This document shows positions 22,208 through 38,155 of a DNA stretch of 39,053 nt, in pieces. The DNA lies in the NCBI GenBank assembly GCA_030428835.1, contig JAUIEP010000028.1, positions 1 through 39,053 of the forward strand, read 5' to 3'. This DNA is from Gammaproteobacteria bacterium. GTDB taxonomy: Bacteria > Pseudomonadota > Gammaproteobacteria > Pseudomonadales > Halieaceae. Position 1 is the first letter of the stretch. Each line of letters begins with the position of its first letter. The notes below the pieces were generated by a model that was not told the DNA's origin, ran no database searches, and saw only the letters and a list, made by a program, of their open reading frames with translations. The translations under genes and the position numbers were made by a program.

Positions 22208-23149
22208 GCTGCCGGCCATCTTCTCTATCAGGGAATCCGTCAGCTCGCGCAGCTCGTCCGAGGGGTGCTCGAATTGGAGACCCGCGTGGTAGACCGTTAC
22301 CTTGCCGTGCGTGATGACGTTCTGGCGCACCACGCGGGCGCGCAGTTTCAGGGTGCAGTTGCCGTCCATCGTACTGATGATCGCCTGCAGGGACTGGCCG
22401 ATCTCGAGGGGGTCCGGCACGGTAATCCCGAGGCCGCCCGCGGAGATGTCGTCCAGCGTGGCCTGCAGCGCCTGTTCACCGTCGAACTCGATTTCAAGGC
22501 GCTGGGTCAGCCGCGCGTGTTCGCGCTGGCCGTCCTCGTCGCGGGACTGGGAAAGCAGTTCCAGCAGTTTCTCGAATTCCGTCTCGTCGCGCGTGCTGAG
22601 GCTGGAGAAGCGTGTGGCCATGCCGTAGCCGGCGCCGTCGTCCAGCGTCCAGGTGCGCAGCAGGACCGCCTCGATCCGGATCTCACCGCCGCGCGCGGTG
22701 GGTAGCAGTATTTGCAGTTTGTCGTGCGCGTCGTGCGGCAGGTTCGCAATCTCGATGGCGGCTCCGCCCCAGGAGATATTTTGCAGCCGCGCCGGGACAG
22801 GCTCGGCGCCGGCGTCCCAGACCACCTTGATGGGCGCGCGCACGTTGATGCGCAGCTGCCGCCGGTTTTCGATGGAACCCGCGGGCTCCGGCTGGTCACT
22901 GAACGTGGCCGCGGTCTCGCTCGTGAGTTTGCGCGCGACAGACAGGGCTTCCTGCAGGATATCGTGGCCCTTGGAGAACAGGCCATTGGCGCTGCCCGCA
23001 CCCGACTGCAACTCGCTGGCGGACTCCTGGAAGGCCACGAAACCGCACTTCGCGCGGTGTTGCACGATGCTCACCGCCAGGAGCTGCAGTGCCGATTGCA
23101 GCTCCTCGCGCGAAGCGTCCTCAAGATCTGCTTGCAGTAATTCGGTCAT
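22199..23149 (-). CDS. Double PilZ-domain protein (c-di-GMP receptor)
   Basis: 316 residues, ATG start. After a helical N-terminal ~95 residues of unknown role come two PilZ domains. The first has RRQLR followed by NISWGG; the second has REHAR followed by DISAGG. These are the RxxxR and (D/N)xSxxG motifs that grip c-di-GMP. Both motif pairs are intact, so both domains could bind. No membrane segment or output domain is seen, so it probably acts as a cytoplasmic adaptor controlling motility or exopolysaccharide. It converges with dinB and is not near the GGDEF-EAL gene (15 kb away). Confidence 0.9.
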   Translation of the reverse strand: MTELLQADLEDASREELQSALQLLAVSIVQHRAKCGFVAFQESASELQSGAGSANGLFSKGHDILQEALSVARKLTSETAATFSDQPEPAGSIENRRQLRINVRAPIKVVWDAGAEPVPARLQNISWGGAAIEIANLPHDAHDKLQILLPTARGGEIRIEAVLLRTWTLDDGAGYGMATRFSSLSTRDETEFEKLLELLSQSRDEDGQREHARLTQRLEIEFDGEQALQATLDDISAGGLGITVPDPLEIGQSLQAIISTMDGNCTLKLRARVVRQNVITHGKVTVYHAGLQFEHPSDELRELTDSLIEKMAGSRR

Positions 23150-24697: not shown

Positions 24698-25750
24698 TCA
24701 GGCCGTAGCGGGCAACGTGGAACTTTCCGCCAGTTGCTTCGCCCTCGACGCCATGCTCAGCACCACATCGCCGAACATCGCCATCTTCGGGTTGTCGGCG
24801 CCACCCTGCACGTAGCGCGCGTAGCCGGCCTCCAGCACGCAGGCCATCTTGAAGCGCGCGAGCACGACGTAGTAGTCCATGGCGTCGACCGGCAGGCCGC
24901 TGCGCTGCGCGTAGAAATGCATGAGCTCGTCGCGCGACGGCATGCCCGTGTAGTCGACGTAGCCCTGGTTGCGGTCCTCCCCGGGGTCGGGCCAGGTCAT
25001 GAGTATCCACGCGAGGTCCAGCAGCGGGTCGCCGACGGTGGCCATCTCCCAGTCGACGATGGCGGCGAGGCGCGCGGGCGCGTCGCGGTGGAACATCACG
25101 TTGGCGAACTGGTAGTCGCCGTGGATGATGCCCGGCGTAAAGTGCTTCGGCGTGTGTGTGCGCAGCCATGCGCCGGCCTCCTCGAGGCCCGGCAGGTCGC
25201 GGAACCTGATCTTGTCCAGGTGGGCCAACCAGCGGTCCACCTGGCGGTCGAGGAAGCCCTCCGGCTTGCCGAAGCCCTCGAGACCCGCCGCGCGCCAGTC
25301 CACCTGGCCGAGTTTCGCGATGCCGTCCACCAGTTCATAGGCCATTTGCTGGCGCAGTTCCTCGCTCTCCGCGAAGGGGGAGGGCAGGTCGCCCATCGGC
25401 GTGAAGCCGTCGATGTGGCCCATGATGTAGAAACAGGAGCCCAGCACGGAGGTGTCGTCGCACACCGCGATGCCCTCGGGGTGGGGCACGTCGGTGCCGT
25501 TGAGGGCGTGGATGACGCGGTACTCGCGCAGCATGATCTCGTTGCGCCCCTTCGGCACCTTGCGCGGCGGCTTGCGCAGGGCCATGACCGCGTCGCCGCG
25601 GCGCAGCTCGAAGATCTCGTTGGACGCGCCGCCGCTGATGAAGGTGGCGGAGAGCGGTTCGCCCGCGCCGGGCAGTCCCTGCGCATCCATCCAGCGGGCC
25701 AGCGGTTCTGTGTCGATCGTGGGATCGGCCTCGGGTACGTTGTCCTGCAT
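24698..25750 (-). CDS. APH-like acyl-CoA phosphotransferase (ACAD10/11 kinase-domain type)
   Basis: 350 residues. The kinase fold has a Lys in ALRKPP (K60), the catalytic loop HGDYQFANV (H210-D212, N217), and the metal Asp in IVDWE (D233). The stop codon of the upstream dehydrogenase gene overlaps this ATG by one base (TGATG), so the two are translationally coupled. In animals these two domains are fused in ACAD10/ACAD11, and bacterial pairs such as LvaA/LvaC of levulinate use act on 4-hydroxyacyl-CoA. In those systems the kinase phosphorylates the hydroxyl and the dehydrogenase-like partner removes phosphate to give an enoyl-CoA. That role is inferred here from family and arrangement. Antibiotic resistance is unlikely in this context. 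Confidence 0.88.
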   Translation of the reverse strand: MQDNVPEADPTIDTEPLARWMDAQGLPGAGEPLSATFISGGASNEIFELRRGDAVMALRKPPRKVPKGRNEIMLREYRVIHALNGTDVPHPEGIAVCDDTSVLGSCFYIMGHIDGFTPMGDLPSPFAESEELRQQMAYELVDGIAKLGQVDWRAAGLEGFGKPEGFLDRQVDRWLAHLDKIRFRDLPGLEEAGAWLRTHTPKHFTPGIIHGDYQFANVMFHRDAPARLAAIVDWEMATVGDPLLDLAWILMTWPDPGEDRNQGYVDYTGMPSRDELMHFYAQRSGLPVDAMDYYVVLARFKMACVLEAGYARYVQGGADNPKMAMFGDVVLSMASRAKQLAESSTLPATA

Positions 25751-27060
25751 CAGAGGTTCCCCACCGTGTCGTCGAGGAGGTGCGCGAACTTCTCGCGTGC
25801 CGCCGAGATCTTCGCCGGCAGCCACTCGTTGGGCCACAATCGATCGGCGGCGGGCACGTGGCGGCGCAGCACCTGTTTGGCGATGGTCACGCGGTGCACC
25901 TCGCTCGGCCCGTCCATCACACCCATCATGGGCACTGTGGACCACAGTCCCGCCAGCGGCGTCTCGTTGGAGCAGCCCAGCGCGCCGTGCACCTGTATCG
26001 CGCGGCGCACGATGTCGTGCAGGACCTCCGCGGCCTGCACCTTCACCGCAGAGATGTAGATGCGCGACTTGCGCGGGTCGCCCTTGTCGCACCACCAGGC
26101 CGCGTACAGCACCAGCAGGCGGAACTGCTCGAGCTGTATGAACGAGTCGGCGATGTAGTTCTGCACGCTCTGCTTGTCGGCCAGCACCGAACCCTGGGTC
26201 TCGCGGCTCAGCGCGCGTTCGCAGAGCATGTCCAGCGCCTTGCGGCAGTATGCGACGGTGCGCATCGCGTGGTGTATGCGGCCGCCGCCCAGGCGCTTCT
26301 GGGCCAGCTCGAAGGCCTTGCCCGGCTCACCGAGCACGGCGTCAGCCGGTACCCGCACCCTGTTGTAGCGCACCCAGCCGTGGGCGCCGGGTTCATCGAG
26401 GCTCTCGTACATGAGACCCACGTTGCGCAGGATCTCGATGCCCGGCGTGCTGCGCGGTACCAGGAACATGGTCGCGCCCTTGTGCACGGGCACGCTGTCG
26501 TCGGTGATGGCCATCACGATGAGGAACTCGGCGAAGTCGGCGTGCGACGAGAAGTACTTCTCGCCCTCGATCACCCACTCGTCGCCCTCGCGCCAGGCCT
26601 TGCACGTGAACTGGCCAGGGTCCGACCCGGCCTGTGGTTCGGTCATGGAGTAACAGGACACGATCTCGCCGTTGAGCAGCGGCTGCAGGTACCTGTCCTT
26701 TTGCTCCGGTGTGCCGTAGTGCGCGATGATCTCCGCGTTCCCCGTGTCCGGCGCCTGCGTGCCGAACACGCGCGATGCCCAGTTGGTGCGGCCGAGGATC
26801 TCGTTCATGAGTGCGAGTTTCACCTGGCCGTAGCCCTGCCCGCCGAGTTCGGGCGTGAGGTGACACGCCCACAGCCCGCGTTTGCGCACGGCTTCCTGCA
26901 GGGGCCTGATCAACTCGCAGGTGGTTTCGTTTTTCACGTCGAAGGGATCGGTGGGTTTGCGCCACACGAGCCCGATGGGTTCGATCTCCTCGCGTACGAA
27001 CGCGTCCATCCAGTCGAGCTGGGCCTGGAATTCGGTTTCGGTTTCAAAGTCCCAGGGCAT
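25750..27060 (-). CDS. Acyl-CoA dehydrogenase, ACAD10/11 (LvaC-like) branch
   Basis: 436 residues with AAGGAG nine bases before ATG. The FAD/CoA motifs are MTEPQAGSD (139-147) and EKYFSSHADFAEF. The C-terminal IQVHGALGCSNETPLAGLW holds a Glu (E366) at about the catalytic position of medium-chain dehydrogenases. A longer N-terminus and the LMYESLDEPGAHGW region fit the ACAD10/11 group. It overlaps the downstream APH-like kinase gene by one base. I expect it to take the phosphorylated 4-hydroxyacyl-CoA from the kinase and yield enoyl-CoA; simple alpha,beta-dehydrogenation is the alternative. It lies 96 bp after the 373-residue dehydrogenase gene and is likely in the same transcript. Confidence 0.92.
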   Translation of the reverse strand: MPWDFETETEFQAQLDWMDAFVREEIEPIGLVWRKPTDPFDVKNETTCELIRPLQEAVRKRGLWACHLTPELGGQGYGQVKLALMNEILGRTNWASRVFGTQAPDTGNAEIIAHYGTPEQKDRYLQPLLNGEIVSCYSMTEPQAGSDPGQFTCKAWREGDEWVIEGEKYFSSHADFAEFLIVMAITDDSVPVHKGATMFLVPRSTPGIEILRNVGLMYESLDEPGAHGWVRYNRVRVPADAVLGEPGKAFELAQKRLGGGRIHHAMRTVAYCRKALDMLCERALSRETQGSVLADKQSVQNYIADSFIQLEQFRLLVLYAAWWCDKGDPRKSRIYISAVKVQAAEVLHDIVRRAIQVHGALGCSNETPLAGLWSTVPMMGVMDGPSEVHRVTIAKQVLRRHVPAADRLWPNEWLPAKISAAREKFAHLLDDTVGNL

Positions 27061-27156
27061 AGTCAGTTACTCCTTTTTTGCACCACCGTCGCCCCTGCAT
27101 AGGCGGAGACGACGTTACGGCGGTCAACATACAGTCGCTTATAGTGGCCCGTCATA

Positions 27157-28278
27157 TTATCCCCCCAACCCCAACAACTGCCGCGACACCACGCTGCGCA
27201 TGATCTCCGACGTGCCGCCCCCGATCGTCTCCGTCAGGCTCTGCCGCCAGATCAGTTCGGGGCGGTTGCCGGTCACCAGCGCCTCGGGGCCACCGAGGTC
27301 GAGCACCGCGCGCGCGATGTCCTGGCAAACGGTAGTATGGATGATCTTGTTCATGGCGGCGTCCACCGTGGCGTTGCCCCCGGCGACCATAGTGGCGAGC
27401 ACCTTGCGGCCCAGCATCTCGGTTTCCAGCACGCGCGCGGCGAGGTCCGCCATGCGTTCGCGCACCATGGGGTCGTGGCCCAGGTCGTGGTCGTTGAGCC
27501 AAGCCACCAGGTCCTCCAGGTCGCGCCGCACGCGCCCGGGCGGGAACTGGATGTGGCGTTCGTCCGCCAGCGCCTCGCCGATGATCGACCATGCGCCGTT
27601 CTCGTCGCCGATGCGCTGCTCCACGCTCACGCGCACGCCGTCGAAGAACACCTCGTTCAACTGGTCGCCGTCGAGTGTCGGCAGCGGCGCAACGCGCACG
27701 CCGTTCGCCGCCTTGTCGCAGATAAACAGGCTGAGGCCGCGGCCGCGGCTGTCCTGCGTACCCGTGCGGGCGAGTACCCACAGGAAGTCCATGTCCTGGG
27801 CGTAGGACTGCCAGCACTTCTGGCCGTTGAGTTCATAACAGGTGCCGTCGTCCGACAGGGTCGCCTTCAGGCGCAATCCCGCGAGGTCGGAGCCCGCTTC
27901 CGGTTCGGAGTAGCACAGGGAGAAGTGGATGTCGCCGGTGCGGATGCGCTCCAGCCATGTCGCGCGCTGCGCGGCCGTGCCATAGCGTATGATCGACTTC
28001 GCCACGATGCCGGCCGCGAGGGGATTGCGCGCGGCGCGGGCGTAGGCCACCTCGTTCCACAGGATGTATTCGTGTACCGGCCCCTTGCCCAGTCCGCCGA
28101 ACTCCGTCGGCCAGGTGAGCGCGAGCCAGTTCTTCTGCGCCATCGCGCTGAACATCGACCGGACCTCAGGCCAGCGGTGGCCCTGGCAATAGAAGCCGTC
28201 GAGGTCCGCGTAGTCCGCGAGGAACTCGCGCACCTCGTCGCGAAACGCCAGTTCCTCGCTGTTGAAGCCGTAGTTCAA
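27157..28278 (-). CDS. Acyl-CoA dehydrogenase, large-subunit type (second pair)
   Basis: 373 residues from a TTG start with GGAG nine bases upstream. It has full N-terminal, middle and C-terminal domains, with YSEPEAGSD (123-131) and NGQKCWQSYA. The likely catalytic base is E240 in the ADERHIQFPPGR helix, the position used by isovaleryl-CoA dehydrogenase and by steroid-side-chain enzymes of the FadE29/ChsE2 kind. It ends GGGTSEIMRSVVSRQLLGLGG. It stands 23 bp after the short dehydrogenase gene (28302-29288), its probable partner in an alpha2beta2 heterotetramer. The substrate is unknown; polycyclic or branched acyl-CoA is inferred from the family. Confidence 0.92.
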   Translation of the reverse strand: MNYGFNSEELAFRDEVREFLADYADLDGFYCQGHRWPEVRSMFSAMAQKNWLALTWPTEFGGLGKGPVHEYILWNEVAYARAARNPLAAGIVAKSIIRYGTAAQRATWLERIRTGDIHFSLCYSEPEAGSDLAGLRLKATLSDDGTCYELNGQKCWQSYAQDMDFLWVLARTGTQDSRGRGLSLFICDKAANGVRVAPLPTLDGDQLNEVFFDGVRVSVEQRIGDENGAWSIIGEALADERHIQFPPGRVRRDLEDLVAWLNDHDLGHDPMVRERMADLAARVLETEMLGRKVLATMVAGGNATVDAAMNKIIHTTVCQDIARAVLDLGGPEALVTGNRPELIWRQSLTETIGGGTSEIMRSVVSRQLLGLGG

Positions 28279-28301
28279 TTGAGCGTCTCCGGGTGCTTCA
28301 T

Positions 28302-29288
28302 TTAATTACCGAGTCCCGCGTCCGCGAGCAGAATCGACTGCTCGCGGCTTCTTGCCGGCGCCTCGCTCGCCACCTGTCGTATCCGCCGGGTCAGGTGGAA
28401 GGCCGGCCCCTCGAGTGTCATGCCGATGCCGCCGTAGACCTGGTGGCACGCGTAAGCGGTGGCCAGTGCGCCGCGGCGCGCCGAGTTGATCGCGCCCGCC
28501 GCGAGCCGCCGCGCGGCTGCGATGGGGTCGGGTGACAGGTCGTCAGCGGCGCGCGCATCGAAGGCGGCGGCCGCCGCGTGCGCGAGCGTGTTCGCGGCGG
28601 CAACGGCGATGGCACAGTCCGCCAGCGGGTGCGATACCGCCTGGAACTCACCCAGTGTCTTGCCGAACTGTTTGCGTGTGGCGGCGTGTTCGCTGGTCTC
28701 GCGCACCAGTCGCGCGGCAATACCGGTGAGGTACGCGCTGCGCGCGATATCGCCGATGACGAGGCCGCGGGCGCTGTTCTTTAGAACGCCCGACGCGGTG
28801 AGTGCAGCGCGACCCCAGGCCTCGCCGCCGAGGGTGCGCACGGCCGCGGGGGCTGACGCCGGCTCCGCGTGATGTATACCGTCGTCGCCGGCGATGAGGA
28901 ATACACCGGCGACGGTGCCGTAGGGCAGCAGGGTGTCGCCCGCGCCGCTCAGGCTGACCAGGGCGTCGCCCGCCATGACCTGCTCTCGCGTCACGCCGGT
29001 CAGGACCTGCAGGGCGGCATAGGTGGCGGCGACCGGTCCCGGGAAGGCGTACTCCCCGAGCGTTGCGCAGATGGCCTGCAGCTCGAGCGCGCCGCCCGCG
29101 TCCTCGTAGCCGGGTGCCGCGGGCGCGAATATGCCCATCGCGGCGAGAGCGCGCCACAACTCGAGGGGAAAGTCGCCCTCGGTGTCGCGCGCCGCGCGCT
29201 CTACAGCGTGCGTCTCGCAGAAGCGCGCGACCGCCCCCGCAACTGCCTGCTGCTCCTCCGAGGTCGCGAAATCCAGGGAACCGGTCAC
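28302..29288 (-). CDS. Acyl-CoA dehydrogenase, short-subunit type (second pair)
   Basis: 328 residues from GTG 29288; its GTGA overlaps the upstream stop by four bases, which fixes the start. The middle domain is reduced: there is no SEPEAGSD motif. The C-terminal FAD-binding helices are kept (RKQFGKTLGEFQAVSH, 205-220). At the place where the large subunits have the catalytic ER, this protein reads IARSAYLTG, so it should not be active alone. These are the traits of the non-catalytic partner in heteromeric dehydrogenases such as FadE28/ChsE1. It is placed between the other short gene and the 373-residue large gene. Confidence 0.9.
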   Translation of the reverse strand: MTGSLDFATSEEQQAVAGAVARFCETHAVERAARDTEGDFPLELWRALAAMGIFAPAAPGYEDAGGALELQAICATLGEYAFPGPVAATYAALQVLTGVTREQVMAGDALVSLSGAGDTLLPYGTVAGVFLIAGDDGIHHAEPASAPAAVRTLGGEAWGRAALTASGVLKNSARGLVIGDIARSAYLTGIAARLVRETSEHAATRKQFGKTLGEFQAVSHPLADCAIAVAAANTLAHAAAAAFDARAADDLSPDPIAAARRLAAGAINSARRGALATAYACHQVYGGIGMTLEGPAFHLTRRIRQVASEAPARSREQSILLADAGLGN

Positions 29289-30250
29289 GCCGCGCCCCAG
29301 CGCGCCTCGACCAGGGCGCGCCGCGCGGCGCCGACCCCGCCGAGTTCCTGGCGCAGGGCGAGCAGGCGCATGCTCCACACGTGCAGGTCGAATTCGCAGG
29401 TAAAACCGATCGCGCCGGACAACTGGTGCGTCTCGGTGAACAGGGTGTCCGCCGCCTGCAGCGCGTACGCCGCCGCCGCGGCGACCGCCTCGGGCTGTGC
29501 ATTGTGAAACGCCGCCTCGCGCGTGAGCCAGCGGCTGGCCTCGACCTCGATGGCGCACAGTGACAGGCGGTGCTGGACAGCCTGGAACGAGCCGATGGTG
29601 CGACCGAACTGCCTGCGCTGGCGCAGGTACTCCACCGTGTGGCCGAGCGCGGCATCCATGGTGCCGACGGCCTCGACCGCGAGGCCCAGGCGCCACCAGT
29701 TGCGCAGGGTGTCGGCCGCGCCGGCACCCAACGCCTGGCCCTCCCTGTCCGGCTCGACGGACGCACCCTCCGAGAGCCTGCCCATGGGGTAGCCGAAACT
29801 CGTGCGCACCGGCTCAAAAGTGCCCGGGGCCGGTGACACGAGATAGGCGTCGCCATCATCCAGCACGAGCAGTGACCGGGCGTGCGCGGCGAACCGCACG
29901 GGAGTGGGTTGGGTGAGTTCACCCACCGTGCAGATCGCGACCGGGCCCTCGATGGTGCGTTCGCACAGCGCGGGCGCGACCAGCATCTGCGCCGCCGCCG
30001 CGACCACGCCGCCGCTGCGCGCGATCGCCTCGACGGTGAGCGCCGCCTCCAGTCCTGCGAGCGTGTCGTCGCGCGCAAGGTCCCGGGCGATCTGGTTGAA
30101 GCCCGCCGCCTCCAGCGCCGCATGCAGATCGTGGTCGTAGTCCCCCGCGCGGTTCAGGGCGACAGCGCGCGCCGGTCCCGCGTGTTGCGCCAGCAGGCGC
30201 TCCACGGACTCCAGCACGGCCTGCTGGTCTTCGTTGAGGTCAAAGTCCAC
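29285..30250 (-). CDS. Acyl-CoA dehydrogenase, short-subunit type (first pair)
   Basis: 321 residues from a GTG start nine bases after the stop of the 381-residue dehydrogenase gene; the RBS lies within that gene's end. Again the middle domain is shortened, with no SEPEAGSD. The C-terminal part keeps YLRQRRQFGRTIGSFQAVQH (209-228) for FAD contact. The expected catalytic region reads NWWRLGLAVEAVG, with no ER pair. It is probably the structural partner of the large subunit just upstream. It shares this plan with the next gene, but the two short proteins are quite different in sequence, so this is not a recent duplication. Confidence 0.9.
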   Translation of the reverse strand: MDFDLNEDQQAVLESVERLLAQHAGPARAVALNRAGDYDHDLHAALEAAGFNQIARDLARDDTLAGLEAALTVEAIARSGGVVAAAAQMLVAPALCERTIEGPVAICTVGELTQPTPVRFAAHARSLLVLDDGDAYLVSPAPGTFEPVRTSFGYPMGRLSEGASVEPDREGQALGAGAADTLRNWWRLGLAVEAVGTMDAALGHTVEYLRQRRQFGRTIGSFQAVQHRLSLCAIEVEASRWLTREAAFHNAQPEAVAAAAAYALQAADTLFTETHQLSGAIGFTCEFDLHVWSMRLLALRQELGGVGAARRALVEARWGAA

Positions 30251-30259
30251 GGTGCGTTC

Positions 30260-31405
30260 CTACTCCCGCGGCAGCTTGAGGAAGCGGGCGGCGATCAGGT
30301 TGAGCTGCACCTCGGTGGCGCCCACCGCGACGCCGGCGGTCATGGCCAGGCGGAAGTTGTTGTCGGCGTAGGAGGCGTACTCGCGCGACTCCGGCCCGAA
30401 GATCTCGAGCGCGAGCCGCCCGATGGCGTTGTCGCAGGTGGTGGACAGCACGCGGGCCAGTTGCGTGTCGGCGGTGGGCGGCTGGTCCTTGGCGCGCAGG
30501 TCGATGACTTTATACACGAGCACCCGCGCGGCCTCGCACAGTGCGCGGGCCTCGCCGAGCCTGTCCACGACGATGGGGTCGTCCAGCATGCCGCGCTCGG
30601 CCGCGACTTCCGCGAGCCGGTCGAGGGTCACCGCCGCCCGGGCATAGCGCGCGGCGCCGATGCGCTCGAACTGCAGCGCGTAGTTCACCACGCCCCAGCC
30701 ATTGTTCTCCTCGCCGAGGAGAACGGAGGCGGGCACCGTGACGTCGGTGAAAAACACCTCGTGGAAATAGCGCTCGCCGACGACCGAGGGAATCTCGCGC
30801 ACCTCTATGCCGGGCGTGTCCATGGGCACCAGTAGCACGGAGATGCCCTGTTGGCGGCTGCTCGACGGGTCGGTGCGCACCAGCAGGAAAATGTAGTCGG
30901 CGTGGTTGCAGTAGGAAGTCCAGATCTTGGAGCCGTTGATGACGTAGTTGTCGCCGATACGTTCGGCGCGGGTGCGCAACGCGGCGAGGTCCGAACCCGC
31001 CTCGGGCTCGGAGAAACCCTGGCACCACAACACGTCGCCGGCCGAGATCTTCGGCAGGTGCAACTGTTTCTGCGCCTGCGTGCCGTAATGCATGATCGCG
31101 GGGCCTATCCAGTTGACGTTCATGTACTGCGAGCCGCGCGGCTCGCCGATGGCCCACATCTCCTCGCCGACGATGGAGTGGCGCCAGGGTTCGCAGTCCC
31201 GGCCGCCGTATTCGCCCGGCCAGTGCTGGGTCAGCCACCCCTTCTCGGCCATGCGGCCGCAGAACTGCCGGCTGAACGCGGCCTGCGAGTCGCCGCCCGG
31301 GCCGTGTTGGGATATCTCCTCCCAGTTGTCGGGCAGTTCCTCGTCGAGGAACTCGCGAATCTCCCTGCGGTGCTCGATATCCTCGGGTGACCAGTTGAAT
31401 TCCAA
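30260..31405 (-). CDS. Acyl-CoA dehydrogenase, large-subunit type (first pair)
   Basis: 381 residues from a TTG start with GGGAG eight bases upstream. FSEPEAGSD (131-139) and NGSKIWTSYCNHADY are the FAD/CoA signatures. The catalytic Glu is probably E247 in the helix NYALQFERIGAARY. The C-terminus is NFRLAMTAGVAVGATEVQLNLIA, as in steroid- and hopanoid-type FadE proteins. It is the first gene of a long minus-strand run (large, short, short, large, then the ACAD10/11-like enzyme and the kinase), with 9-bp spacing to its partner. The divergent region of 247 bp before it is shared with the DUF35-thiolase-ligase run, so both are probably co-regulated. Confidence 0.93.
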   Translation of the reverse strand: MEFNWSPEDIEHRREIREFLDEELPDNWEEISQHGPGGDSQAAFSRQFCGRMAEKGWLTQHWPGEYGGRDCEPWRHSIVGEEMWAIGEPRGSQYMNVNWIGPAIMHYGTQAQKQLHLPKISAGDVLWCQGFSEPEAGSDLAALRTRAERIGDNYVINGSKIWTSYCNHADYIFLLVRTDPSSSRQQGISVLLVPMDTPGIEVREIPSVVGERYFHEVFFTDVTVPASVLLGEENNGWGVVNYALQFERIGAARYARAAVTLDRLAEVAAERGMLDDPIVVDRLGEARALCEAARVLVYKVIDLRAKDQPPTADTQLARVLSTTCDNAIGRLALEIFGPESREYASYADNNFRLAMTAGVAVGATEVQLNLIAARFLKLPRE

Positions 31406-31484
31406 CGCCGCTCTCCCGCGCCCTTAAATACAGCGAAAAAATCAGAATGGCAGAATCAATTTCAGTTAACAAGCCAGCTGTCTG

Positions 31485-31507
31485 AAAAAAACCCGGCTCC
31501 CGGTTTG
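31485..31507 (-). terminator. Terminator-like hairpin in the leader of the minus-strand run
   Basis: On the minus strand a 7-bp stem with one bulged base (arms AAACCGG and CCGGGTTT, loop GAG) runs into seven T residues at 31491-31485. It is 80-100 bp upstream of the first dehydrogenase start, with no minus-strand gene before it to terminate. It could be a leader attenuator or chance. The rest of the 247-bp divergent region shows no clear operator. Confidence 0.3.
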
Positions 31508-31652
31508 TGGCTGCCGCGCGGCCTCGCAGGGTCGAAATCATAGAGCCGAAAGTGTTACTGTGACGCTCGCCGCCGGCGCGGTGTGGACCGGTCAAGCCGG
31601 GTGGAATAACCGGCTCGATAACTGGCCGAATAATAAGCGACAAGGAGTAGGC

Positions 31653-32087
31653 GTGAGTAAGCAGTTCAAGCGGCCGCTGCCGCAACTGACGGATCGCAAC
31701 CGGTTCTTCTGGACCGCCGGCGAGGAGGGCACATTGCGTTTCCTGCGCTGCAGCGACTGCGCCAACCTGATACACCCGCCCGTACCTGTGTGCGACAAGT
31801 GCCTGTCGCGGCAACAGGAAGTAGCGGATGTGTCGGGCCGCGCGACGCTGGTCGCGGTCACGGTCAACGAGCAGATGTGGATGCCGATGATCGAGCCGCC
31901 GTACGTCATCGGCATCGTGGAAATCGAGGAGCAACCCGATGTGCGCCTCACCACCAACATCGTTCAGTGCGCGCACGAGGATCTCGCGATCGGCATGGCC
32001 CTTGAGGTCGCGTTCGAGCACTACGAGGACGTCTACCTGCCCGTGTTCCGCCCGGCGGACCCGGCGCTGCGCACGGAGGCGGGGTAA
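31653..32087 (+). CDS. DUF35 Zn-ribbon/OB-fold acyl-CoA-associated protein (ChsH2-like)
   Basis: 144 residues. The GTG start is decided by AAGGAG five bases upstream. A rubredoxin-like Zn-ribbon with C33-x2-C36 and C47-x2-C50 is followed by an OB-fold (ATLVAVTVNEQMW...VIGIVEIEE). This is the classic DUF35 layout. Such proteins pair with thiolase-fold partners: DUF35 with acetoacetyl-CoA thiolases, and ChsH2's DUF35 domain with the Ltp2 retro-aldolase of steroid side-chain degradation. Here the next gene, 4 bp on, is just such a partner. The protein probably shapes or channels the acyl-CoA site and is not itself catalytic. Confidence 0.92.
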   Translation: MSKQFKRPLPQLTDRNRFFWTAGEEGTLRFLRCSDCANLIHPPVPVCDKCLSRQQEVADVSGRATLVAVTVNEQMWMPMIEPPYVIGIVEIEEQPDVRLTTNIVQCAHEDLAIGMALEVAFEHYEDVYLPVFRPADPALRTEAG

Positions 32088-32091
32088 CAGC

Positions 32092-33282
32092 ATGGAAAAA
32101 TTCGAAGACAAGTCCGCGGTCACCGGACTGGGGATGTCGGATATCGGCCGCCGCCTGATGCGGGATCCGCTGGGCCTGACCCTCGACGCCTGCCTGGACG
32201 CGATCGAGGACGCGGGCCTGACGCGGGCGGACATCGACGGCGTGAGCACCTACCCGGGCGTGGTCGGCGGCGCGCCGGGCATCAGCGGCGCCTCCGCGTG
32301 GGACGTCTGCGACGCGCTGCGGCTGGACGTCAACTGGTTCAACAGCGGGCTGGAGCAGTCCGGCCAACTCGGTTCGGTAGTCAACGCGATGCTGGCGGTG
32401 GCGACCGGCCTGTGCCGCCACGTGCTGTGTTTCCGCACGGTGTGGGAGGCGACCTACACCGAGCTGCAGCGTTCGGGACAGATTCGCTACTCGGGCGGCG
32501 CCGGCCGCCTGAGCGGCGGCATGGAGTGGCGCATTCCCTACGGCGCCGCGTCGGCGTCGAACTGGATCGCGATGTACTGCAGCCACTACATGCACCGCTA
32601 CGGACTGACGAAGGAGCAACTCGGGCAGATTGCCCTCAACGGCCGTCGCAATGCCGCGCTGACGCCGTACGCCATCTACAAAGACCCGATGACCATGGAC
32701 GATTACCTGAACGCGCGCGTCATCTCGACTCCTTTCGGTTTGTACGATTGCGACGTGCCCTGCGACGCCTCGGTGGCGTTCGTGATCTCCCACGTCGATG
32801 CCGTGAAGGACAGCCGCCGCGGGCGCGGTATCGGTTTCGAGGCGGTGGGCACCGCGAATACCGAGCGCGTGTCCTGGGACCAGGGCGACCTGCGCTACCT
32901 GCCGGGCGTGAAGGGTGCCGCGGACATGCTGTGGTCGCGCACCGACCTCAGGCACAAGGACATCGACACGGCGCAGTTGTACGACGGCTTCAGTTTCAAT
33001 GCCCTGTGCTGGCTTGAACGCCTGGGCTTCTGCGGCGAGGGCGAGGTGGGCGCGTTTCTCGAGGGCGGTACGCGCATCGCCCGCGACGGAGAGCTGCCGC
33101 TCAATACCAACGGCGGCCAGCTCTCGGCGGGGCGGATGCACGGTTACGGCTTCCTGCACGAGGCCTGCGTGCAGTTGCTGGGCGAGGGCGGCGAGCGCCA
33201 GTTGCCGAATGAGCCGCGGACCGCCGTGTGCAGCGCGGGCGGCGGCGTGCCCGGCGGCGTCCTGCTGGTCAAGGCCCTGTAA
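32092..33282 (+). CDS. Thiolase-fold lipid-transfer/retro-aldolase (Ltp2-like), lacks nucleophile Cys
   Basis: 396 residues, ATG 4 bp after the DUF35 gene; GGAGG lies within that gene's end. Two thiolase halves are visible, starting SAVTGLGMSDIG and ending AVCSAGGGVPGGVLLVKAL. Where a true thiolase has its nucleophilic Cys, the sequence reads NSGLEQSGQLG, with no Cys. Kept elements are LYDGFSFNALCWLE (Y297, D298) and GRMHGYGF (H350). This matches the Ltp2-type group, which uses Tyr/His chemistry for C-C retro-aldol cleavage of a beta-hydroxyacyl-CoA, in complex with a DUF35 protein. The assignment is by family; non-catalytic lipid transfer is the alternative. Confidence 0.9.
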   Translation: MEKFEDKSAVTGLGMSDIGRRLMRDPLGLTLDACLDAIEDAGLTRADIDGVSTYPGVVGGAPGISGASAWDVCDALRLDVNWFNSGLEQSGQLGSVVNAMLAVATGLCRHVLCFRTVWEATYTELQRSGQIRYSGGAGRLSGGMEWRIPYGAASASNWIAMYCSHYMHRYGLTKEQLGQIALNGRRNAALTPYAIYKDPMTMDDYLNARVISTPFGLYDCDVPCDASVAFVISHVDAVKDSRRGRGIGFEAVGTANTERVSWDQGDLRYLPGVKGAADMLWSRTDLRHKDIDTAQLYDGFSFNALCWLERLGFCGEGEVGAFLEGGTRIARDGELPLNTNGGQLSAGRMHGYGFLHEACVQLLGEGGERQLPNEPRTAVCSAGGGVPGGVLLVKAL

Positions 33283-33286
33283 GCGC

Positions 33287-34903
33287 ATGTTCGACTACGC
33301 GGCGCATGGCCTCGTTCCCTCCACGACCCGGCTGCCGCTGCCGGGTGACGGCCCCCAGACCATCGGCGATGTCCTCGCGCGACAGCTTGCGCGCGACCCG
33401 GACCGGCTCGCGCTGGTGGGGCGCGGCGGGCGCTTGACCTACGCGCAGCTCGATGCGGAGGCGGACCGCACCGCCGCGGACTTCCTGGAAGCGGGCATTG
33501 AGCGCTACGACCGTATCGCCGCCTGCCTGCCCAACGACATCGATATCATCATCGCGCTGCTCGCCTGTGCCCGGCTGGGCGCGATCTGGGTCGGCGTCAA
33601 CCGGCCCCTCGCGCCGCCCGAGAAGGCCTTTATCCTCTCCGACAGCGGCGCGCGGTTGTACCTGACCGACGCGGCCGGTGCCGAGGAAATTCATCCGCTG
33701 CTCGGCGAACTGCCGGGGCTGCGCGTGCTGCAGCTCGGCACCGCCGTCATGGAAGGCGGCGTGCACGGTTTCGTGCAGCACCCGAAGCCGAAACCCTACC
33801 CGCGACCCGAAGTCGACCCATTCGAACCCGCCGCCATCGCCTACACCAGCGGCACGACCGGCCGCCCGAAGGGGGCCGTTCACAGTCATCACAACGTGCT
33901 GCTGCCCGGCGCCATCGCGGCACTGGAAGGGCGCTTCGGCGCGGACTGCCCGCAGGGCGTGATGCTACCGCTCACCATCCTCAACCTCATGGTGCTCGCG
34001 CCGATGACGGCCTTCCAGGACGGCGCCAGTTGCGTGTGCATGGACAGCGTGAAACCGCAGGACATCGCCGACTGGGTGGCGCAGGAGAAGATAGGGCACT
34101 TCTCGTCGGTGCCGACCATCATGCAGGACCTGCTGACCTCCGACCTCGTCGACCCCGCGGACCTCGCCAGCCTGGGTAACCCGGACGTCGGTGGCGCGGG
34201 CATCGCCGAGTCCTTCCAGTCACTGTACCGGGAGCGCTTTGGCCGCCACATGACCGTGGCCTACGGCATGACCGAGGCGCCCACCATCGTCGCGAAAACC
34301 AGTCCCCACGAGGCGCCGGTGGAGGAGTTGTGCGGCAGGGCGGTCGCGCAGGTGGAGATCCTTGTCGTCGATGACGAGAATCGTCCCGTACCCGTCGGCA
34401 CGGTCGGCGAAATCTGCGTCCGCCCGGCGACGCAAGGCCCGTACGCCAATGTCTACACCACCATGCTGGGTTACTGGGGCCGGCCGGACGCCACCGCCGA
34501 CGCGCTCGCCGGCGGGATGTACCACACGGGTGATCTGGGCTGCCTCGATGACAGCGGCCAGCTCTTCATCCGCGGTCGGCAGAAGGAACTGATCATCCGC
34601 GGTGGCGCCAACGTGTACCCGGCGGAGGTGGAGCGGGTGCTCGTGACGGATGCGCGCGTCAGCGACGCCGCCGTACTCGGCCTGGACGATGAGCGCCTCG
34701 GCCAGCGCGTGGTCGCGGTTGTGCAGACCGATGTCCAGGACGAGGCGCTGGAAGCGTCGCTGCGCGGCCTGTGCGAGGCGCAGCTCGCGCGCTACAAGGT
34801 GCCGGATCGCATCATTGCGGTGCCGGTATTACCGCGCAATGCCATGAACAAGGTCATCAAGCCGGAACTGGTCGGCTTGTTCGACGCGCAACAGGGTGAC
34901 TGA
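33287..34903 (+). CDS. Acyl-CoA synthetase (AMP-forming ligase)
   Basis: 538 residues; ATG 4 bp after the thiolase-fold gene. The ANL-superfamily motifs are all present: P-loop YTSGTTGRPKGAVHSH (from residue ~186), YGMTEAP (~325), YHTGDLG, RQKELIIRGGANVYPAEVE (hinge), and the late catalytic Lys region NAMNKVIK. It activates a carboxylic acid to its acyl-CoA through an acyl-adenylate, using ATP and CoA. The acid is unknown. In this cluster it would be the entry step feeding the dehydrogenases and the lyase. Length and motifs are normal. Confidence 0.95.
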   Translation: MFDYAAHGLVPSTTRLPLPGDGPQTIGDVLARQLARDPDRLALVGRGGRLTYAQLDAEADRTAADFLEAGIERYDRIAACLPNDIDIIIALLACARLGAIWVGVNRPLAPPEKAFILSDSGARLYLTDAAGAEEIHPLLGELPGLRVLQLGTAVMEGGVHGFVQHPKPKPYPRPEVDPFEPAAIAYTSGTTGRPKGAVHSHHNVLLPGAIAALEGRFGADCPQGVMLPLTILNLMVLAPMTAFQDGASCVCMDSVKPQDIADWVAQEKIGHFSSVPTIMQDLLTSDLVDPADLASLGNPDVGGAGIAESFQSLYRERFGRHMTVAYGMTEAPTIVAKTSPHEAPVEELCGRAVAQVEILVVDDENRPVPVGTVGEICVRPATQGPYANVYTTMLGYWGRPDATADALAGGMYHTGDLGCLDDSGQLFIRGRQKELIIRGGANVYPAEVERVLVTDARVSDAAVLGLDDERLGQRVVAVVQTDVQDEALEASLRGLCEAQLARYKVPDRIIAVPVLPRNAMNKVIKPELVGLFDAQQGD

Positions 34904-34908
34904 TCGCG

Positions 34909-35334
34909 ATGCCGCAAGCACATGAATTCAACCAGAGCGTGCCGGCCCTTGCCGCGGCGCGCGACGCCTTGCGCGCGTCACTGCGGCAGCAGCCACACCT
35001 GCCGGGCGCGGTGCTCGAGCTGTGCCGCCTGCGGCTGGCGCAACTGCACCATAGCGCGGCGGATCTCGCCACAACTGAATACGCCCTGCCCGAAAGCAGG
35101 CGCGGCGCGCTGGGCCACTGGGATTCCTCGTCATTGTTCGGCGCAGCGGAGCGCGCCTGTCTCGCCTTCGCGGAAGTGTATGCCATGGACGCCGCGGCCC
35201 TGACCGACGAGCACGCCGACGCGGTGAAGTCGCACTATGGCGACGCCGGCCTCGTCGCGCTCATCGAGGCCCTGGGGATATTCGACGGCGCGATTCGTGT
35301 GAACCTGTTGTGGGGGGAAGGCGATGACCGGTAA
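34909..35334 (+). CDS. Carboxymuconolactone decarboxylase (AhpD-fold) protein lacking redox cysteines
   Basis: 141 residues, ATG 5 bp after the ligase stop. The core ELCRLRLAQLHHSAAD aligns with the usual ELxRLRVAQxxxCxYC stretch of CMD/AhpD-like proteins, but the two Cys positions are Ser49 and Asp52. The late helix ALIEALGIFDGAIRVN is kept, as in CMD proteins. It should not do disulfide/peroxidase chemistry. It overlaps the next gene, a CMD-family member that keeps the CxxC, by 11 bp, so the two may form a heteromer. It could be a decarboxylase- or isomerase-type member, or a structural subunit; the function is unknown. Confidence 0.8.
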   Translation: MPQAHEFNQSVPALAAARDALRASLRQQPHLPGAVLELCRLRLAQLHHSAADLATTEYALPESRRGALGHWDSSSLFGAAERACLAFAEVYAMDAAALTDEHADAVKSHYGDAGLVALIEALGIFDGAIRVNLLWGEGDDR

Positions 35335-35842
35335 ACCGCGCGCGCACAACCCGGCCGCGCCCAGCGGCAACATGATTGCGGACTCCGCCCTGGGACTGGT
35401 GCCCGAAACACTCGCTTCCTACCTGCACTACAACCGCATGATCTGGGAGGAGGGGCCCTTGAGCCCCGCCGAGGTGGAGGTCGCGCGCCTGCGCAATGCG
35501 CGCAGGGTGAACTGTGTGTTCTGCAAGAGCGTGCGCTATGACATCGCGATCGAGGCGGGGCTTACCGAGGAGCGCGTGGCGATGATCGGCGAGGGCTATC
35601 GCGACAGTGGCCTGAGCGCGCGGGAAAAACTCATCGTGGCGCTGGTGGACCAGTACTACGACGCGCCGGGGTCTATGAGCGAGTCGCTGCGCGCTGAGCT
35701 GGACGCCGAATTCAGCGCGGAGGAGCTGGCCCACCTGTCACTGGCCATCGCGCATTTCAGCGGGTTTTCACGTTGCGCGGTGGCGCTGGGTGGCATGCCC
35801 GAGGAGCTGCCGGTGATGGCGATTTCTCTGCCTGACGGCTAG
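35324..35842 (+). CDS. Carboxymuconolactone decarboxylase/AhpD-fold protein with CxxC
   Basis: 172 residues with RBS GGGGGGAAGG just before ATG and an 11-bp overlap with the preceding CMD gene (coupled translation). The active region is ARLRNARRVNCVFCKSVRYD: C64-x2-C67 is intact, but the His that follows four residues later in AhpD is Arg71. The fold continues with LTEERVAMIGEG and ends in a helix (HLSLAIAHFSGFSRC). It is the last gene of the five-gene plus-strand run. CMD-fold proteins may be peroxidase-like, lactone decarboxylases or unknown; here a late pathway step or redox protection is inference. Confidence 0.88.
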   Translation: MTGKPRAHNPAAPSGNMIADSALGLVPETLASYLHYNRMIWEEGPLSPAEVEVARLRNARRVNCVFCKSVRYDIAIEAGLTEERVAMIGEGYRDSGLSAREKLIVALVDQYYDAPGSMSESLRAELDAEFSAEELAHLSLAIAHFSGFSRCAVALGGMPEELPVMAISLPDG

Positions 35843-35950: not shown

Positions 35951-36110
35951 GTTTGTCCGGCGGATTCAACCGGTGAATGCAACATCTAATCTCTATACAG
36001 GCAGAGAAAAGAGGGCATATTGGAACACTCCGCTTTTCCAATGAACATGGCAGGGTGTTGCGTTGATCAGTTGAATCCACAGCCATAAGCGGACACTGGC
36101 TGTTCAAGCC

Positions 36111-36662
36111 CTATGCGTTGTTTTTGGTGAGCGTTATGCCGATTCCAGCCAGCGATATAGCAAATAAGGCCATTGTCGCCGGAGTAGGTATTCCTTGTCG
36201 TTTAAAAGTCACAAGAGTTAAGAAGCTCAATGAACCCGAGTCTTGGGATCCAGAAAATCCCCAATTGGAAGCACCTGTTGCCCACTCGAATCCGTGCCTG
36301 CTGGCGAAGTTGTTGTCAATATAAACTGAAGGCGAAATAAACTGGTCGGGCACAAACAGTAGGCATATCGGATTCTCACACCCGGCAATATCGCCAGCCA
36401 GAGGTACACCTACAAGGTTAAGCCCCTCTGCAATTGCTGATGAAACGGCGTTCGCCTCTGCTTCATAGGCGGAATCGAAGATAACGTCAGAATAGACCTC
36501 CTCGATCACGCCTTCACGGAAAGTAACGTCGTATAGAATTCCGTCGACATAAACGCCCGTCAAAACGCTGCCATCAGCCGACAAAATTGGCATTGCCATT
36601 GGGTAACTCGAATATACGAGTGTGGCCAAGAAAATAGAGCCTAGTATCATCTTCATAAACAT
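36111..36662 (-). CDS. Secreted protein with variant PEP-CTERM-like sorting signal
   Basis: 183 residues from ATG 36662; nearby in-frame ATGs at 36656 and 36650 are equally possible. A Sec signal (MILGSIFLATLVYSS, then PMAMP) is followed by a short domain with no family I recognise, holding one Cys pair (GCENPIC). The C-terminus, IPTPATMALFAISLAGIGITL, has the proline motif and transmembrane helix of PEP-CTERM proteins. The motif reads PTPAT rather than PEPAT, and the tail is TKNNA instead of an Arg cluster. If functional, it would be processed by an exosortase encoded elsewhere. Codons are AT-rich compared with all neighbours, which suggests transfer. Confidence 0.6.
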   Translation of the reverse strand: MFMKMILGSIFLATLVYSSYPMAMPILSADGSVLTGVYVDGILYDVTFREGVIEEVYSDVIFDSAYEAEANAVSSAIAEGLNLVGVPLAGDIAGCENPICLLFVPDQFISPSVYIDNNFASRHGFEWATGASNWGFSGSQDSGSLSFLTLVTFKRQGIPTPATMALFAISLAGIGITLTKNNA

Positions 36663-36727
36663 CACTGAGTTTTTCTTCGTTCCATAGCACAAGGGGTCAG
36701 AATCCTATTATTAACTCGGACTAAGTG

Positions 36728-36768
36728 TACGTACAAAGGGCTCCGGGTTTTACGTACAAAGCGCTCCG
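36728..36768 (+). repeat. Short direct repeat in the AT-rich intergenic region
   Basis: TACGTACAAAGGGCTCCG (36728-36745) recurs at 36751-36768 with one change (GGG to GCG). It lies in the 406-bp gap between the PEP-CTERM-like gene and mtfA (36663-37068). I see no gene in that gap, only this repeat and the right inverted-repeat copy. Confidence 0.65.
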
Positions 36769-36967
36769 ATCCCATATTTCACGCATTTCCTGTTTTTTTT
36801 TCCTAAAGCCGCAGAGCGAATTGGGTGACGCAGTTCATCGGGGCCGCTCCATGTTATCGCCTGCGAGAAAACTGTAACCTAAAACCACGCGTCCGCTTTA
36901 GGTCGGTAGCTGAAGGTTTGTCGTAGTCTAGTCCAGAAATCCGAGGGTGTCCGTTTCGTGGCAATAT

Positions 36968-37017
36968 CCGCCACCGGATTCCGAAACATCGAACCCCCGC
37001 TTTCCCGGCAAAGACGG
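36968..37017 (-). repeat. Right copy of the 50-bp inverted repeat
   Basis: This is the reverse-complement partner of 35901-35950 (41/50 matches). It marks the point where base composition returns to the high-GC norm, 52 bp before the 3' end of mtfA. Confidence 0.75.
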
Positions 37018-37068
37018 AAATTAGTGCAAAGCTGCTTCGACAACCACCCGGTGCCTGATACCAGGAGA

Positions 37069-37899
37069 CTACCGCTTTTCATGCCAGTCCCTGGGGTCGC
37101 ATCGATAGAAAAGCCGCAATTCCTCGAAAAGCTCCGGACGATGCTTATGCAGCGCGTCGGGCTCCTCAAAAAACGTCTCGGTCGCCACGGCGAAAAACTC
37201 CGCCGGGTTGGTCGCGCCGTAGTCGTCGATCACGGTCGGTTGCCCTTTCATCACCCTGTCCTGAAGGTCCTCGAAGTTCTCCGAGAAGACGCGCGCCCAG
37301 GAGCGGTAACTGTTGTTGCGCAGCACCGGAGCGCCATTGGTGTCGCCCGAGAGTGAATCGAGCTGGTGCGCGAACTCGTGCAGGATGACGTTCTCGCCGT
37401 CCGTGAAATCCGATGCGCCGCGTGCAGCGGCGTCCCAGGCCAGCACGATGCGGCCGTTGTCCCAGGACTCCCCCAGCATATGGTGGGCCTCATTGCTGAC
37501 GGTGCCGTCGTCGTAGTGTTCCTCGCGCCGCGCGCTGAAACCGGAAGGGTAGACGAGTATTGCCGTGAGTCCGGGGTAGACGGAACCCTGCCGGTGCAGC
37601 AACAGCAGGCAGGCCTCCGCGGCGATGGTGAGGCGAATCTCGTCGGTGACTTCCAGGCCTGCGCAGCCGTAGAAGGTCTTGTCGTTGAGAAACAGCTTGA
37701 TGAGCTGGTGCAGGCGTTCCCGCTCCTGGTCGGACAGCCTGGAGTAGACCGCATTGTTGCGCGCGAGAATCTTCTGCCACTCCTGCGCAAACGGCGCCGC
37801 CAACAGGCGCCCGTGCGACCAGTTGCGCCAGCTCCGGTAGAGCAGGAAACCGGCGACAACCAGCGCCGGCGGCAGCAGTGGAATCCAGGAGGAATCCAT
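37069..37899 (-). CDS. mtfA: MtfA-type zinc peptidase (M90 family)
   Basis: 276 residues, ATG start. The short N-terminal hydrophobic stretch (PLLPPALVVAGFLLY) is followed by the MtfA domain. Its HEFAHQLD zinc site gives H174, E175 and H178, with the third ligand probably E234 in NPAEFFAVATETFF. The early IAAEACLLLLH is also typical. In Escherichia coli MtfA is a peptidase that binds and inactivates the repressor Mlc, raising ptsG expression. In this organism the target is unknown, and the N-terminal helix could anchor it to the membrane. It is a lone gene beside the AT-rich island. Confidence 0.92.
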   Translation of the reverse strand: MDSSWIPLLPPALVVAGFLLYRSWRNWSHGRLLAAPFAQEWQKILARNNAVYSRLSDQERERLHQLIKLFLNDKTFYGCAGLEVTDEIRLTIAAEACLLLLHRQGSVYPGLTAILVYPSGFSARREEHYDDGTVSNEAHHMLGESWDNGRIVLAWDAAARGASDFTDGENVILHEFAHQLDSLSGDTNGAPVLRNNSYRSWARVFSENFEDLQDRVMKGQPTVIDDYGATNPAEFFAVATETFFEEPDALHKHRPELFEELRLFYRCDPRDWHEKR

Positions 37900-38155
37900 G
37901 TCCTTACTCTATTTTCACCGCGTTATCACCCCGTCATCATGACCAGCGTCAGTGTACAGCAGTCGGGCGTAAACTTTCCCTATGGCGACACACTCCCGGC
38001 CGCGCCGCGGGTGGGGTGTTGCCCTGTTGGCTTGCCCGGGGTCCGGGCGGGTTTCGGGCACTCGTCACACCATTGCCCGGCGAGCGGCAAACTGCGTCAC
38101 AGTTCTCGCAGCGCGCGGCGTAAATATTGCTGCCCTGGGCTAGCATCGCCTTGAC

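Follow-up and report, generated by a model that had tools for sequence, protein, structure and literature searches.

A divergent eleven-gene acyl-CoA locus in a relative of Halioglobus carries an ACAD11-type kinase-dehydrogenase pair and an Ltp2-like protein of a separate YDGF clade

The contig JAUIEP010000028.1 (assembly GCA_030428835.1), analysed here over its complete length of 39053 bases and referred to as the window, belongs to the 5.23-Mb genome, in 319 contigs, of a marine bacterium related to Halioglobus. Between positions 24698 and 35842 it carries a cluster of eleven genes, six leftward and five rightward, which diverge from a 247-bp gap (31406–31652). We interpret these genes, with moderate confidence, as half of a beta-oxidation system that is dispersed over the genome and would act on a carboxylic acid of an isoprenoid- or steroid-like type, branched and/or cyclic. 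Each module is known in kind; the part that is new to the specialist is the clade of the thiolase-fold lyase, recognised by the residues YDGF and a distant arginine (YDGF...R). The initial annotation of this DNA had described a CoA-dependent catabolic locus of twelve genes, probably acting on a branched, cyclic or gamma-hydroxylated acid. Its outer coordinates, divergent layout and intergenic region agree with the sequence, its module identities are backed by Pfam, by sequence matches in the PDB and by a single predicted fold, and both the catabolic assignment and the substrate class find support here. The gene count is corrected to eleven, to which the annotation's own list of modules also sums.

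We favour the dispersed beta-oxidation reading because the residues typical of ACAD11 and LvaC are kept in one dehydrogenase, and because the best PDB match of the lyase is the Ltp2–DUF35 complex, whose tyrosine base it retains. The two pairs of acyl-CoA dehydrogenase (ACAD) subunits match ChsE4, Tcur3483 and Tcur3481 in the PDB and carry a helix glutamate in the large subunit only, which argues in the same direction. So does the preservation of the gene order in two sister genomes (G008 and G014), where a second gene block adjoins the rightward run; in the window's genome this block lies on another contig, C103. Further support comes from two orthologues, one from each block, that occupy the same four genomes, and from a paralogue of the lyase that shares 20 kb with genes for a cytochrome P450, a ferredoxin, a ferredoxin reductase, a short-chain dehydrogenase/reductase (SDR) and a flavoprotein resembling 3-ketosteroid dehydrogenase. 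Gene content, conservation, diagnostic residues and the fact that both blocks occur together within one genus are direct observations.

From these we infer the reactions and the substrate, as follows. The ligase would convert the acid to its acyl-CoA ester, and the two large/small ACAD pairs, with their catalytic-type glutamate in the large subunit, would form alpha,beta-unsaturated CoA esters. Hydratases encoded outside the window, of the enoyl-CoA hydratase (ECH) and MaoC types, would hydrate these esters. If the beta-hydroxyl formed in this step is tertiary, and hence not oxidisable, the complex of DUF35 protein and lyase would cleave by a retro-aldol reaction, releasing a ketone or aldehyde and a short acyl-CoA. 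Intermediates with a gamma-hydroxyl would be phosphorylated by the kinase, and the ACAD11-type enzyme would eliminate the phosphate to give a 2-enoyl-CoA that returns to the cycle. The SDRs and the thiolase of the second block would serve ordinary rounds. Isoprenoid- or steroid-like acids are the most likely substrate class.

The kinase and its partner dehydrogenase close the leftward run. The APH-family kinase, of the LvaA or ACAD11 kinase-domain type (24698–25750, minus strand, 350 aa), matches Pfam APH at 8.7e-40 when scanned as a longer open reading frame (ORF) that reaches 26095. Its best PDB match is 3dxp, followed by 9o56 and the ACAD11 kinase domain 8v3v/8v3u (4.8e-39), and the motifs HGD(x4)N at 210–217 and DWE at 233 are present, with the catalytic Asp and Asn kept. 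The adjoining gene (25750–27060, minus strand, 436 aa; Pfam ACAD) encodes a dehydrogenase that matches 4hr3 at 1.4e-75 and ACAD11 8v3u at 2.7e-69. According to the available text of PMC12440821, ACAD10/11 and LvaC are distinguished by R626, H634, R637 and the catalytic aspartate D753 of ACAD11. All four are conserved in the window dehydrogenase as R256, H264, R267 and D383, in alignment columns that were judged by eye and with PDB chain numbering one lower. Membership of the ACAD10/11–LvaC group therefore rests on these residues, beyond overall similarity.

The other four leftward genes encode the two ACAD pairs. Pair 1 consists of the large subunit L1 (27157–28278, minus strand, 373 aa, putative TTG start; best PDB match ChsE4, 4x28_A, 4.7e-49) and the small subunit S1 (28302–29288, minus strand, 328 aa; best match Tcur3481, 6wy8_A, 1.4e-12, with the ChsE5 chain 4x28_D third at 2e-11). 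Pair 2 consists of the small subunit S2 (29285–30250, minus strand, 321 aa; 6wy8_A second at 6.8e-14, 4x28_D at 1.7e-5) and the large subunit L2 (30260–31405, minus strand, 381 aa, putative TTG start; best match Tcur3483, 6wy9_A, 1.4e-54, and ChsE4, 4x28_A, 4.2e-52). By columns assigned by eye, the helix glutamate is confined to the large subunits (Glu240 in L1, Glu247 in L2) and replaced by Ala in S1 and Trp in S2; residue 247 of the ChsE4 chain, which aligns with L1 Glu240, is presumably the catalytic glutamate. This distribution agrees with the rule of one glutamate per large/small pair in alpha2beta2 steroid ACADs, as given in the portion of PMC8399759 available to us. None of the four subunits passes an NCBIfam cut-off, and the best model for S2, IpdE2, is reached with 71 bits against a cut-off of 450.

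At the start of the rightward run stand a DUF35 gene and the lyase gene. The DUF35 protein, a stand-alone zinc ribbon and OB fold (31653–32087, plus strand, 144 aa; Pfam OB_ChsH2_C and zf-ChsH2), matches the DUF35 domain of ChsH2 (6ok1_B) at 5.8e-17. The Ltp2-like thiolase-fold lyase of the YDGF...R clade (32092–33282, plus strand, 396 aa) has Ltp2 (6ok1_A, 9.2e-48) as its best PDB match. As reported in the accessible part of PMC12329534, the catalytic residues are Tyr294 and Tyr344 in TcLtp2 and Tyr302 and Cys304 in CtSal, where Gln352 occupies the place of Tyr344. In our alignment Tyr297 of the window lyase corresponds to TcLtp2 Tyr294, so that the tyrosine base of the YDxF motif is kept as YDGF. 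Gly299 replaces the catalytic Cys304 of CtSal and His296 of TcLtp2, and Arg348 replaces the general acid Tyr344 of TcLtp2 and Gln352 of CtSal. On these residues the window lyase is predicted to fit neither known type of bacterial steroid aldolase: the base is kept and neither known acid is. It may use another acid, for which His350 would be a candidate, or do another reaction.

These substitutions recur in all homologues kept for analysis. Homologue loci were selected with two peptide patterns of the window lyase, and the best 80 of 161 relatives were analysed; Tyr297, Gly299, Arg348 and His350 are invariant in all 80. Since the loci were picked by pattern and represent the best 80 of 161, this invariance holds within the clade only. 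Among 13 further YDGF relatives, 12 have the arginine and the remaining one is truncated at that position. Eight relatives at about 33% identity carry YDAF or YDHF, and all eight have a tyrosine in the place of Arg348. All 80 loci have a DUF35 match on the same strand as the lyase, upstream of it and not more than 400 bp away. In a tree of 72 rows, built from 27 of the 80 named loci, relatives and thiolases and including no solved Ltp2 sequence, the 52 YDGF rows make up one side of a 100/100 branch, separate from the YDHF and YDAF rows; some of the non-YDGF rows were long-branched, so the YDGF split alone is used. The YDGF...R proteins range from Halieaceae to Actinomycetota and, judging from record titles, to Acidobacteriota and Myxococcota.

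Two interpretations of this pattern reach beyond the pathway outlined above. With low confidence, we suggest that the YDGF...R proteins constitute a third mechanistic type of DUF35-dependent acyl-CoA C–C lyase, coupled in this locus to an ACAD11/kinase pair that would supply enoyl- or beta-hydroxyacyl-CoA esters. Conversely, they may have another CoA-dependent activity of the thiolase fold (decarboxylation, acyl transfer or Claisen condensation), leaving the locus with no retro-aldol step, a possible explanation that we nevertheless regard as doubtful. It would explain why both known catalytic acids are lost and why all 80 loci have an arginine where the catalytic His/Tyr would stand, and DUF35-like subunits also accompany acetoacetyl-CoA and benzoylsuccinyl-CoA thiolases among the matches. 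However, the tyrosine base is invariant and the Ltp2–DUF35 aldolase is the best structural match. Moreover, none of the 80 proteins has a cysteine at columns 85, 89, 91 or 94, around the thiolase nucleophile. The identification of the clade with the mycobacterial proteins Ltp3 and Ltp4 was rejected. In M. interjectum the YDHF Ltp2 gene has its nearest lyase-family match at a distance of about 15 kb, and this match shares just 30% identity with the window lyase; YDGF genes of 58–59% identity stand away from that Ltp2 gene. The YDGF clade is thus probably distinct from Ltp3/Ltp4, as deduced from gene positions and identities in M. interjectum. A 2014 classification of mycobacterial thiolase-like proteins is cited in PMC12329534.

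The arrangement of the cluster is conserved among close relatives. A search of 57 genomes, the window's own included, recovered the lyase at 78–80% identity in three others; the closest matches among named genomes are two metagenome-assembled genomes (MAGs) of Halioglobus and one MAG titled Gammaproteobacteria, all three ranked in the same genus. Halioglobus DT_44 (G008) retains all eleven genes and their divergent order, and MAG 3_bin.63 (G014) has 9 of 11 in order, with the pair of AhpD-fold genes about 26 kb away on the same contig; identities in the two genomes are 49–87%. A third genome, G010, keeps most of the order, with 9 of 11 genes on two contigs (APH, ACAD11, L1, S1, S2, part of L2, the ligase and both AhpD-fold genes). 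The gene-order comparison proposed in the initial annotation finds both runs kept together in G008 and G014. It also bears on the notion that unrelated lipid genes happen to lie near one another here, in a genome that encodes dozens of ACADs. The 52 ACAD-family model matches in the window's genome would suit such a view, as would the occurrence of the DUF35–lyase pair apart from dehydrogenases in Halioglobus NAT121 (G013). Yet the order is kept at the identities given above, and the presence of the second block is matched across genomes, which makes a chance neighbourhood hardly probable at all.

The sister genomes also show where further beta-oxidation genes reside. In G008, G010 and G014 an ECH gene sits between S1 and L1 within the leftward run. 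In G008 and G014 the rightward run continues into the second block, with genes for an SDR, a TetR regulator, a fusion of a 3-hydroxy-3-methylglutaryl-CoA (HMG-CoA) synthase-like domain with DUF35, and a thiolase, which is cut by the contig end in G008. In G010 the TetR, SDR and HMG-CoA-synthase-like genes lie on the contig of the ligase and AhpD-fold pair, and the thiolase and the rest of the HMG-CoA-synthase-like gene lie on another. The window's genome has two SDR genes flanking a TetR gene, followed by the HMG-CoA-synthase-like/DUF35 fusion, a thiolase and an ECH on contig C103, and then a MaoC pair and another thiolase. The block thiolase on C103 scores above the cut-off of an NCBIfam equivalog model (419.6 against 403); the thiolase motif HDCF is found in G014 and the window's genome, and GHP in G014. 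Orthologues of the HMG-CoA-synthase-like/DUF35 fusion at 67% identity or more occur in 4 of 37 genomes (own and query genome included), and orthologues of L2 at 86% or more occur in the same four among 12 examined. The fusion was seen beside the thiolase at L023 507–1964 and at L154 4284–5765, the latter scoring 187.7 bits against the cut-off of 244 of the HMG-CoA synthase model.

These genes decide the fate of a simpler model, in which kinase-dependent elimination and retro-aldol cleavage stand in for hydratase, dehydrogenase and thiolase and the eleven genes form the entire pathway. The initial annotation had proposed such a replacement of beta-oxidation steps, noting that a hydratase, a hydroxyacyl dehydrogenase and a true thiolase were missing. 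That observation holds for the eleven window genes; it fails for the orthologous locus in the sister genomes and for the same genome overall. A partly available source reports that LvaC and ACAD10 reactions give some 3-hydroxyacyl-CoA directly, contamination not being excluded (PMC11342911), which would suit a shunt. However, the hydratase gene in the run of all three sister genomes, the SDR, TetR and HMG-CoA-synthase-like/DUF35 genes beside their rightward run, and the C103 block with its thiolase, ECH and MaoC pair led us to reject this model as very unlikely. As hydratase, SDR and thiolase genes belong to the sister locus and to C103, their absence from the cluster reflects gene linkage in the window's genome, not the pathway.

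In each of the four genomes that have the second block, a perfect palindrome, TTTGACANNNTGTCAAA, stands in front of it; the spacers are unlike. The window's genome has copies at L154 1785–1801 (C103, before the block) and at L164 7493–7509 (contig C211, directly before a TonB-dependent receptor gene). Because the palindrome stands before both, uptake and the second block look co-regulated, and this evidence does not extend to the eleven-gene cluster. A single TetR regulon over both blocks was considered and rejected, as this candidate operator is absent from the window. The divergent intergenic region (31406–31652, 247 bp, read from the sequence) has a single sigma-70-like site, which is weak and lies on the minus strand (0.1 in shuffles).

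Outside the genus, the YDGF genes occur in catabolic surroundings. In four closely related actinobacterial loci, titled Acidimicrobiaceae (L060 and L073), Actinomycetota (L063) and Acidimicrobiales (L077), the YDGF–DUF35 pair neighbours an APH–ACAD11 pair at 57–61% identity, and L073, which was annotated, also has P450, ECH, CoA-transferase and ACAD genes. An ACAD11 match of at least 50% identity lies near the YDGF gene in 9 of 77 loci (L038–L040 left out), against 0.58 expected from genome density, a figure derived from four genomes not chosen for an ACAD11 neighbour. In two Mycobacterium genomes (G057 and G058), the lyase-family genes within 20 kb of such an ACAD11 gene are, among the matches listed, only YDGF types, one per genome. 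Of 79 named loci (L060 was dropped, having no lyase ORF that passed the overlap filter), 20 have a P450 match at most 3 kb from the lyase, as do 7 of 12 loci from the own genome and its relatives. The idea that the clade at large shares a conserved neighbourhood was rejected, as DUF35 alone is near-universal around the lyase in the 80 named loci. The window's genome itself has a second YDGF lyase–DUF35 locus on contig C98 (L030), in which, besides the P450, ferredoxin, ferredoxin reductase and SDR genes mentioned above, an amidohydrolase gene lies within 20 kb and genes for a pyrroloquinoline quinone dehydrogenase and the 3-ketosteroid-dehydrogenase-like flavoprotein are found.

This flavoprotein raises the question of a strict steroid locus, acting on bile-acid or sterol side chains as a divergent counterpart of the igr and Shy–Sal systems. 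The ACAD pairs, the DUF35 protein and the lyase all have steroid enzymes as their first or near-first solved relatives. In G014, moreover, the cluster is accompanied by SDRs and a sulfatase, and the same contig bears a canonical-type Ltp2 (YDAF) followed by DUF35. The flavoprotein match nevertheless stays under its cut-off (612 bits against 789), no steroid equivalog cut-off is passed among the NCBIfam matches listed, and the MaoC–DUF35 hydratase (ChsH2 or Shy) is absent from the eleven genes. With the lyase clade set apart from Ltp2 and devoid of the catalytic acids of the steroid enzymes, we consider an exclusively steroid role rather unlikely.

Several points weigh against the broader beta-oxidation reading that we prefer. 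The lyase has neither the validated catalytic acid of Ltp2 (Tyr344, here Arg348) nor that of Sal (Cys304, here Gly299), so its retro-aldol activity is not assured. The G010 assembly, 89% complete, has no DUF35–lyase pair, its best lyase match being 33% identical, and both of its contigs end at that point. G013 has the pair with no surrounding dehydrogenases and no L2 match at 1e-80, which means that the pair occurs without them; an A2-like gene (68%) lies about 9 kb from it. The window's genome has no orthologue of the ECH gene found within the run of its sisters (best match 37%), and TTTGACANNNTGTCAAA is missing from the window even when three mismatches are allowed. Among 18 genomes of the genus, none has a match above the cut-off for IpdE2, a marker of steroid ring C/D degradation, although this cut-off may be lineage-tuned. 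Four of the nine loci with an ACAD11 neighbour represent one lineage, and catabolic genes cluster generally.

The rest of the rightward run consists of the ligase and two AhpD-fold genes. The AMP-forming acyl-CoA ligase (33287–34903, plus strand, 538 aa) matches Pfam AMP-binding at 3.2e-70 on a longer ORF from 32915. No NCBIfam cut-off is reached among its matches listed (best 25 of 105), the third best being CasG, a steroid-24-oyl-CoA synthetase; by family models the ligase appears generic, and its specificity is not readable from families. In one sister genome, G014, a sulfatase gene adjoins the ligase (L021 5950–7905), hinting at sulfated substrates. The next protein (34909–35334, plus strand, 141 aa) has no Pfam match and no CxxC motif; it is assigned the AhpD fold by predicted structure only (AlphaFold2 mean pLDDT 85.6; Foldseek matches 2ijc at 4.3e-5 and P. 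aeruginosa AhpD, 7xw1, at 1.9e-4). The last (35324–35842, plus strand, 172 aa) is a carboxymuconolactone decarboxylase/AhpD-family protein (Pfam CMD, 3.3e-8) with a CxxC motif, C64-V-F-C67, conserved in 4 of 4, and an Arg where the AhpD motif, CxxCxxxH, has its His. A check of start sites and coding bias gave a third-codon GC of 0.81–0.93 across all eleven frames.

Directly past the rightward run, GC content falls to 0.55 at 36001–38000, where an M90 metallopeptidase gene lies at 37069–37899. As the second block of the relatives begins on that side, the drop may mark the edge of a rearrangement. On the other side, a gene for a Y-family (IMS) DNA polymerase (20926–22179, plus strand) and a PilZ-domain gene (22199–23149, minus strand) stand between an AraC regulator and the cluster. 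An RPE65-family gene of the carotenoid-oxygenase type (12566–13891, minus strand), at a distance of about 11 kb, adjoins a TonB-dependent receptor gene (14120–16636, plus strand), a pairing that may serve isoprenoid uptake and cleavage.

If true, a third lyase type combined with an ACAD11/kinase pair would allow bacteria to bypass two obstacles to beta-oxidation, gamma-hydroxyl groups and tertiary carbons. Two catalytic layouts have been described for steroid side-chain aldolases of this fold, Tyr–Tyr in Ltp2 and Tyr–Cys in Sal. A clade with a tyrosine and an invariant arginine, encoded near P450s and the ACAD11/kinase pair in Pseudomonadota and Actinomycetota, points to undescribed chemistry or an undescribed substrate class, a question that can be addressed with one two-protein complex. 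The locus also sets the ACAD10/11-type route in a bacterial context apparently made for complex lipids. The initial annotation knew of no described pathway with all these modules, and none that joins them was found here in a literature that was covered in part, as far as titles and the openings of abstracts show; this does not prove that none has been described.

Compared with known systems, the kinase and dehydrogenase resemble ACAD10/ACAD11 and the LvaA–LvaC pair of the 4-hydroxyacyl-CoA route, with identical Arg/His/Arg and catalytic Asp residues. They differ from ACAD11 in being two separate genes, and they are embedded among ACAD pairs and a DUF35–lyase pair, a context not mentioned for lva or ACAD10/11 in the available parts of the sources. 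The lva operon also includes a small protein, LvaB, to which none of the ORFs here, very short ones aside, was assigned. The ACAD pairs share with the ChsE4–ChsE5, Tcur3483–Tcur3481 and IpdE1–IpdE2 heterotetramers the adjoining genes for large and small subunits and the glutamate in the large subunit only; here, however, two pairs lie side by side. Both AhpD-like proteins share the fold of AhpD, and neither has its full CxxCxxxH active site.

The lyase and its partner are similar to the Ltp2–ChsH2(DUF35) and Sal–Shy(DUF35) aldolases in combining the thiolase fold with a DUF35 subunit, in the YDxF tyrosine base and in having no cysteine at the checked nucleophile columns. Unlike in those systems, the window DUF35 is a gene of its own, unfused to a MaoC hydratase, and the lyase has Gly299 and Arg348 and a tree branch of its own. 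The igr-type operon (ChsE1E2–ChsH1H2–Ltp2) differs in a further respect, as no MaoC domain occurs among the eleven window genes and the MaoC pair is on C103. From SCP2 thiolase the window lyase is set apart by having neither a nucleophilic cysteine at the checked columns nor the histidine of GHP, at whose column it has an arginine. The peroxisome-like set for branched chains consists of an MFE2-type SDR and an SCP2-type thiolase, and the second block likewise has SDRs and a thiolase bearing HDCF and GHP. To this set the bacterial system adds the HMG-CoA-synthase-like/DUF35 fusion and the DUF35-dependent lyase.

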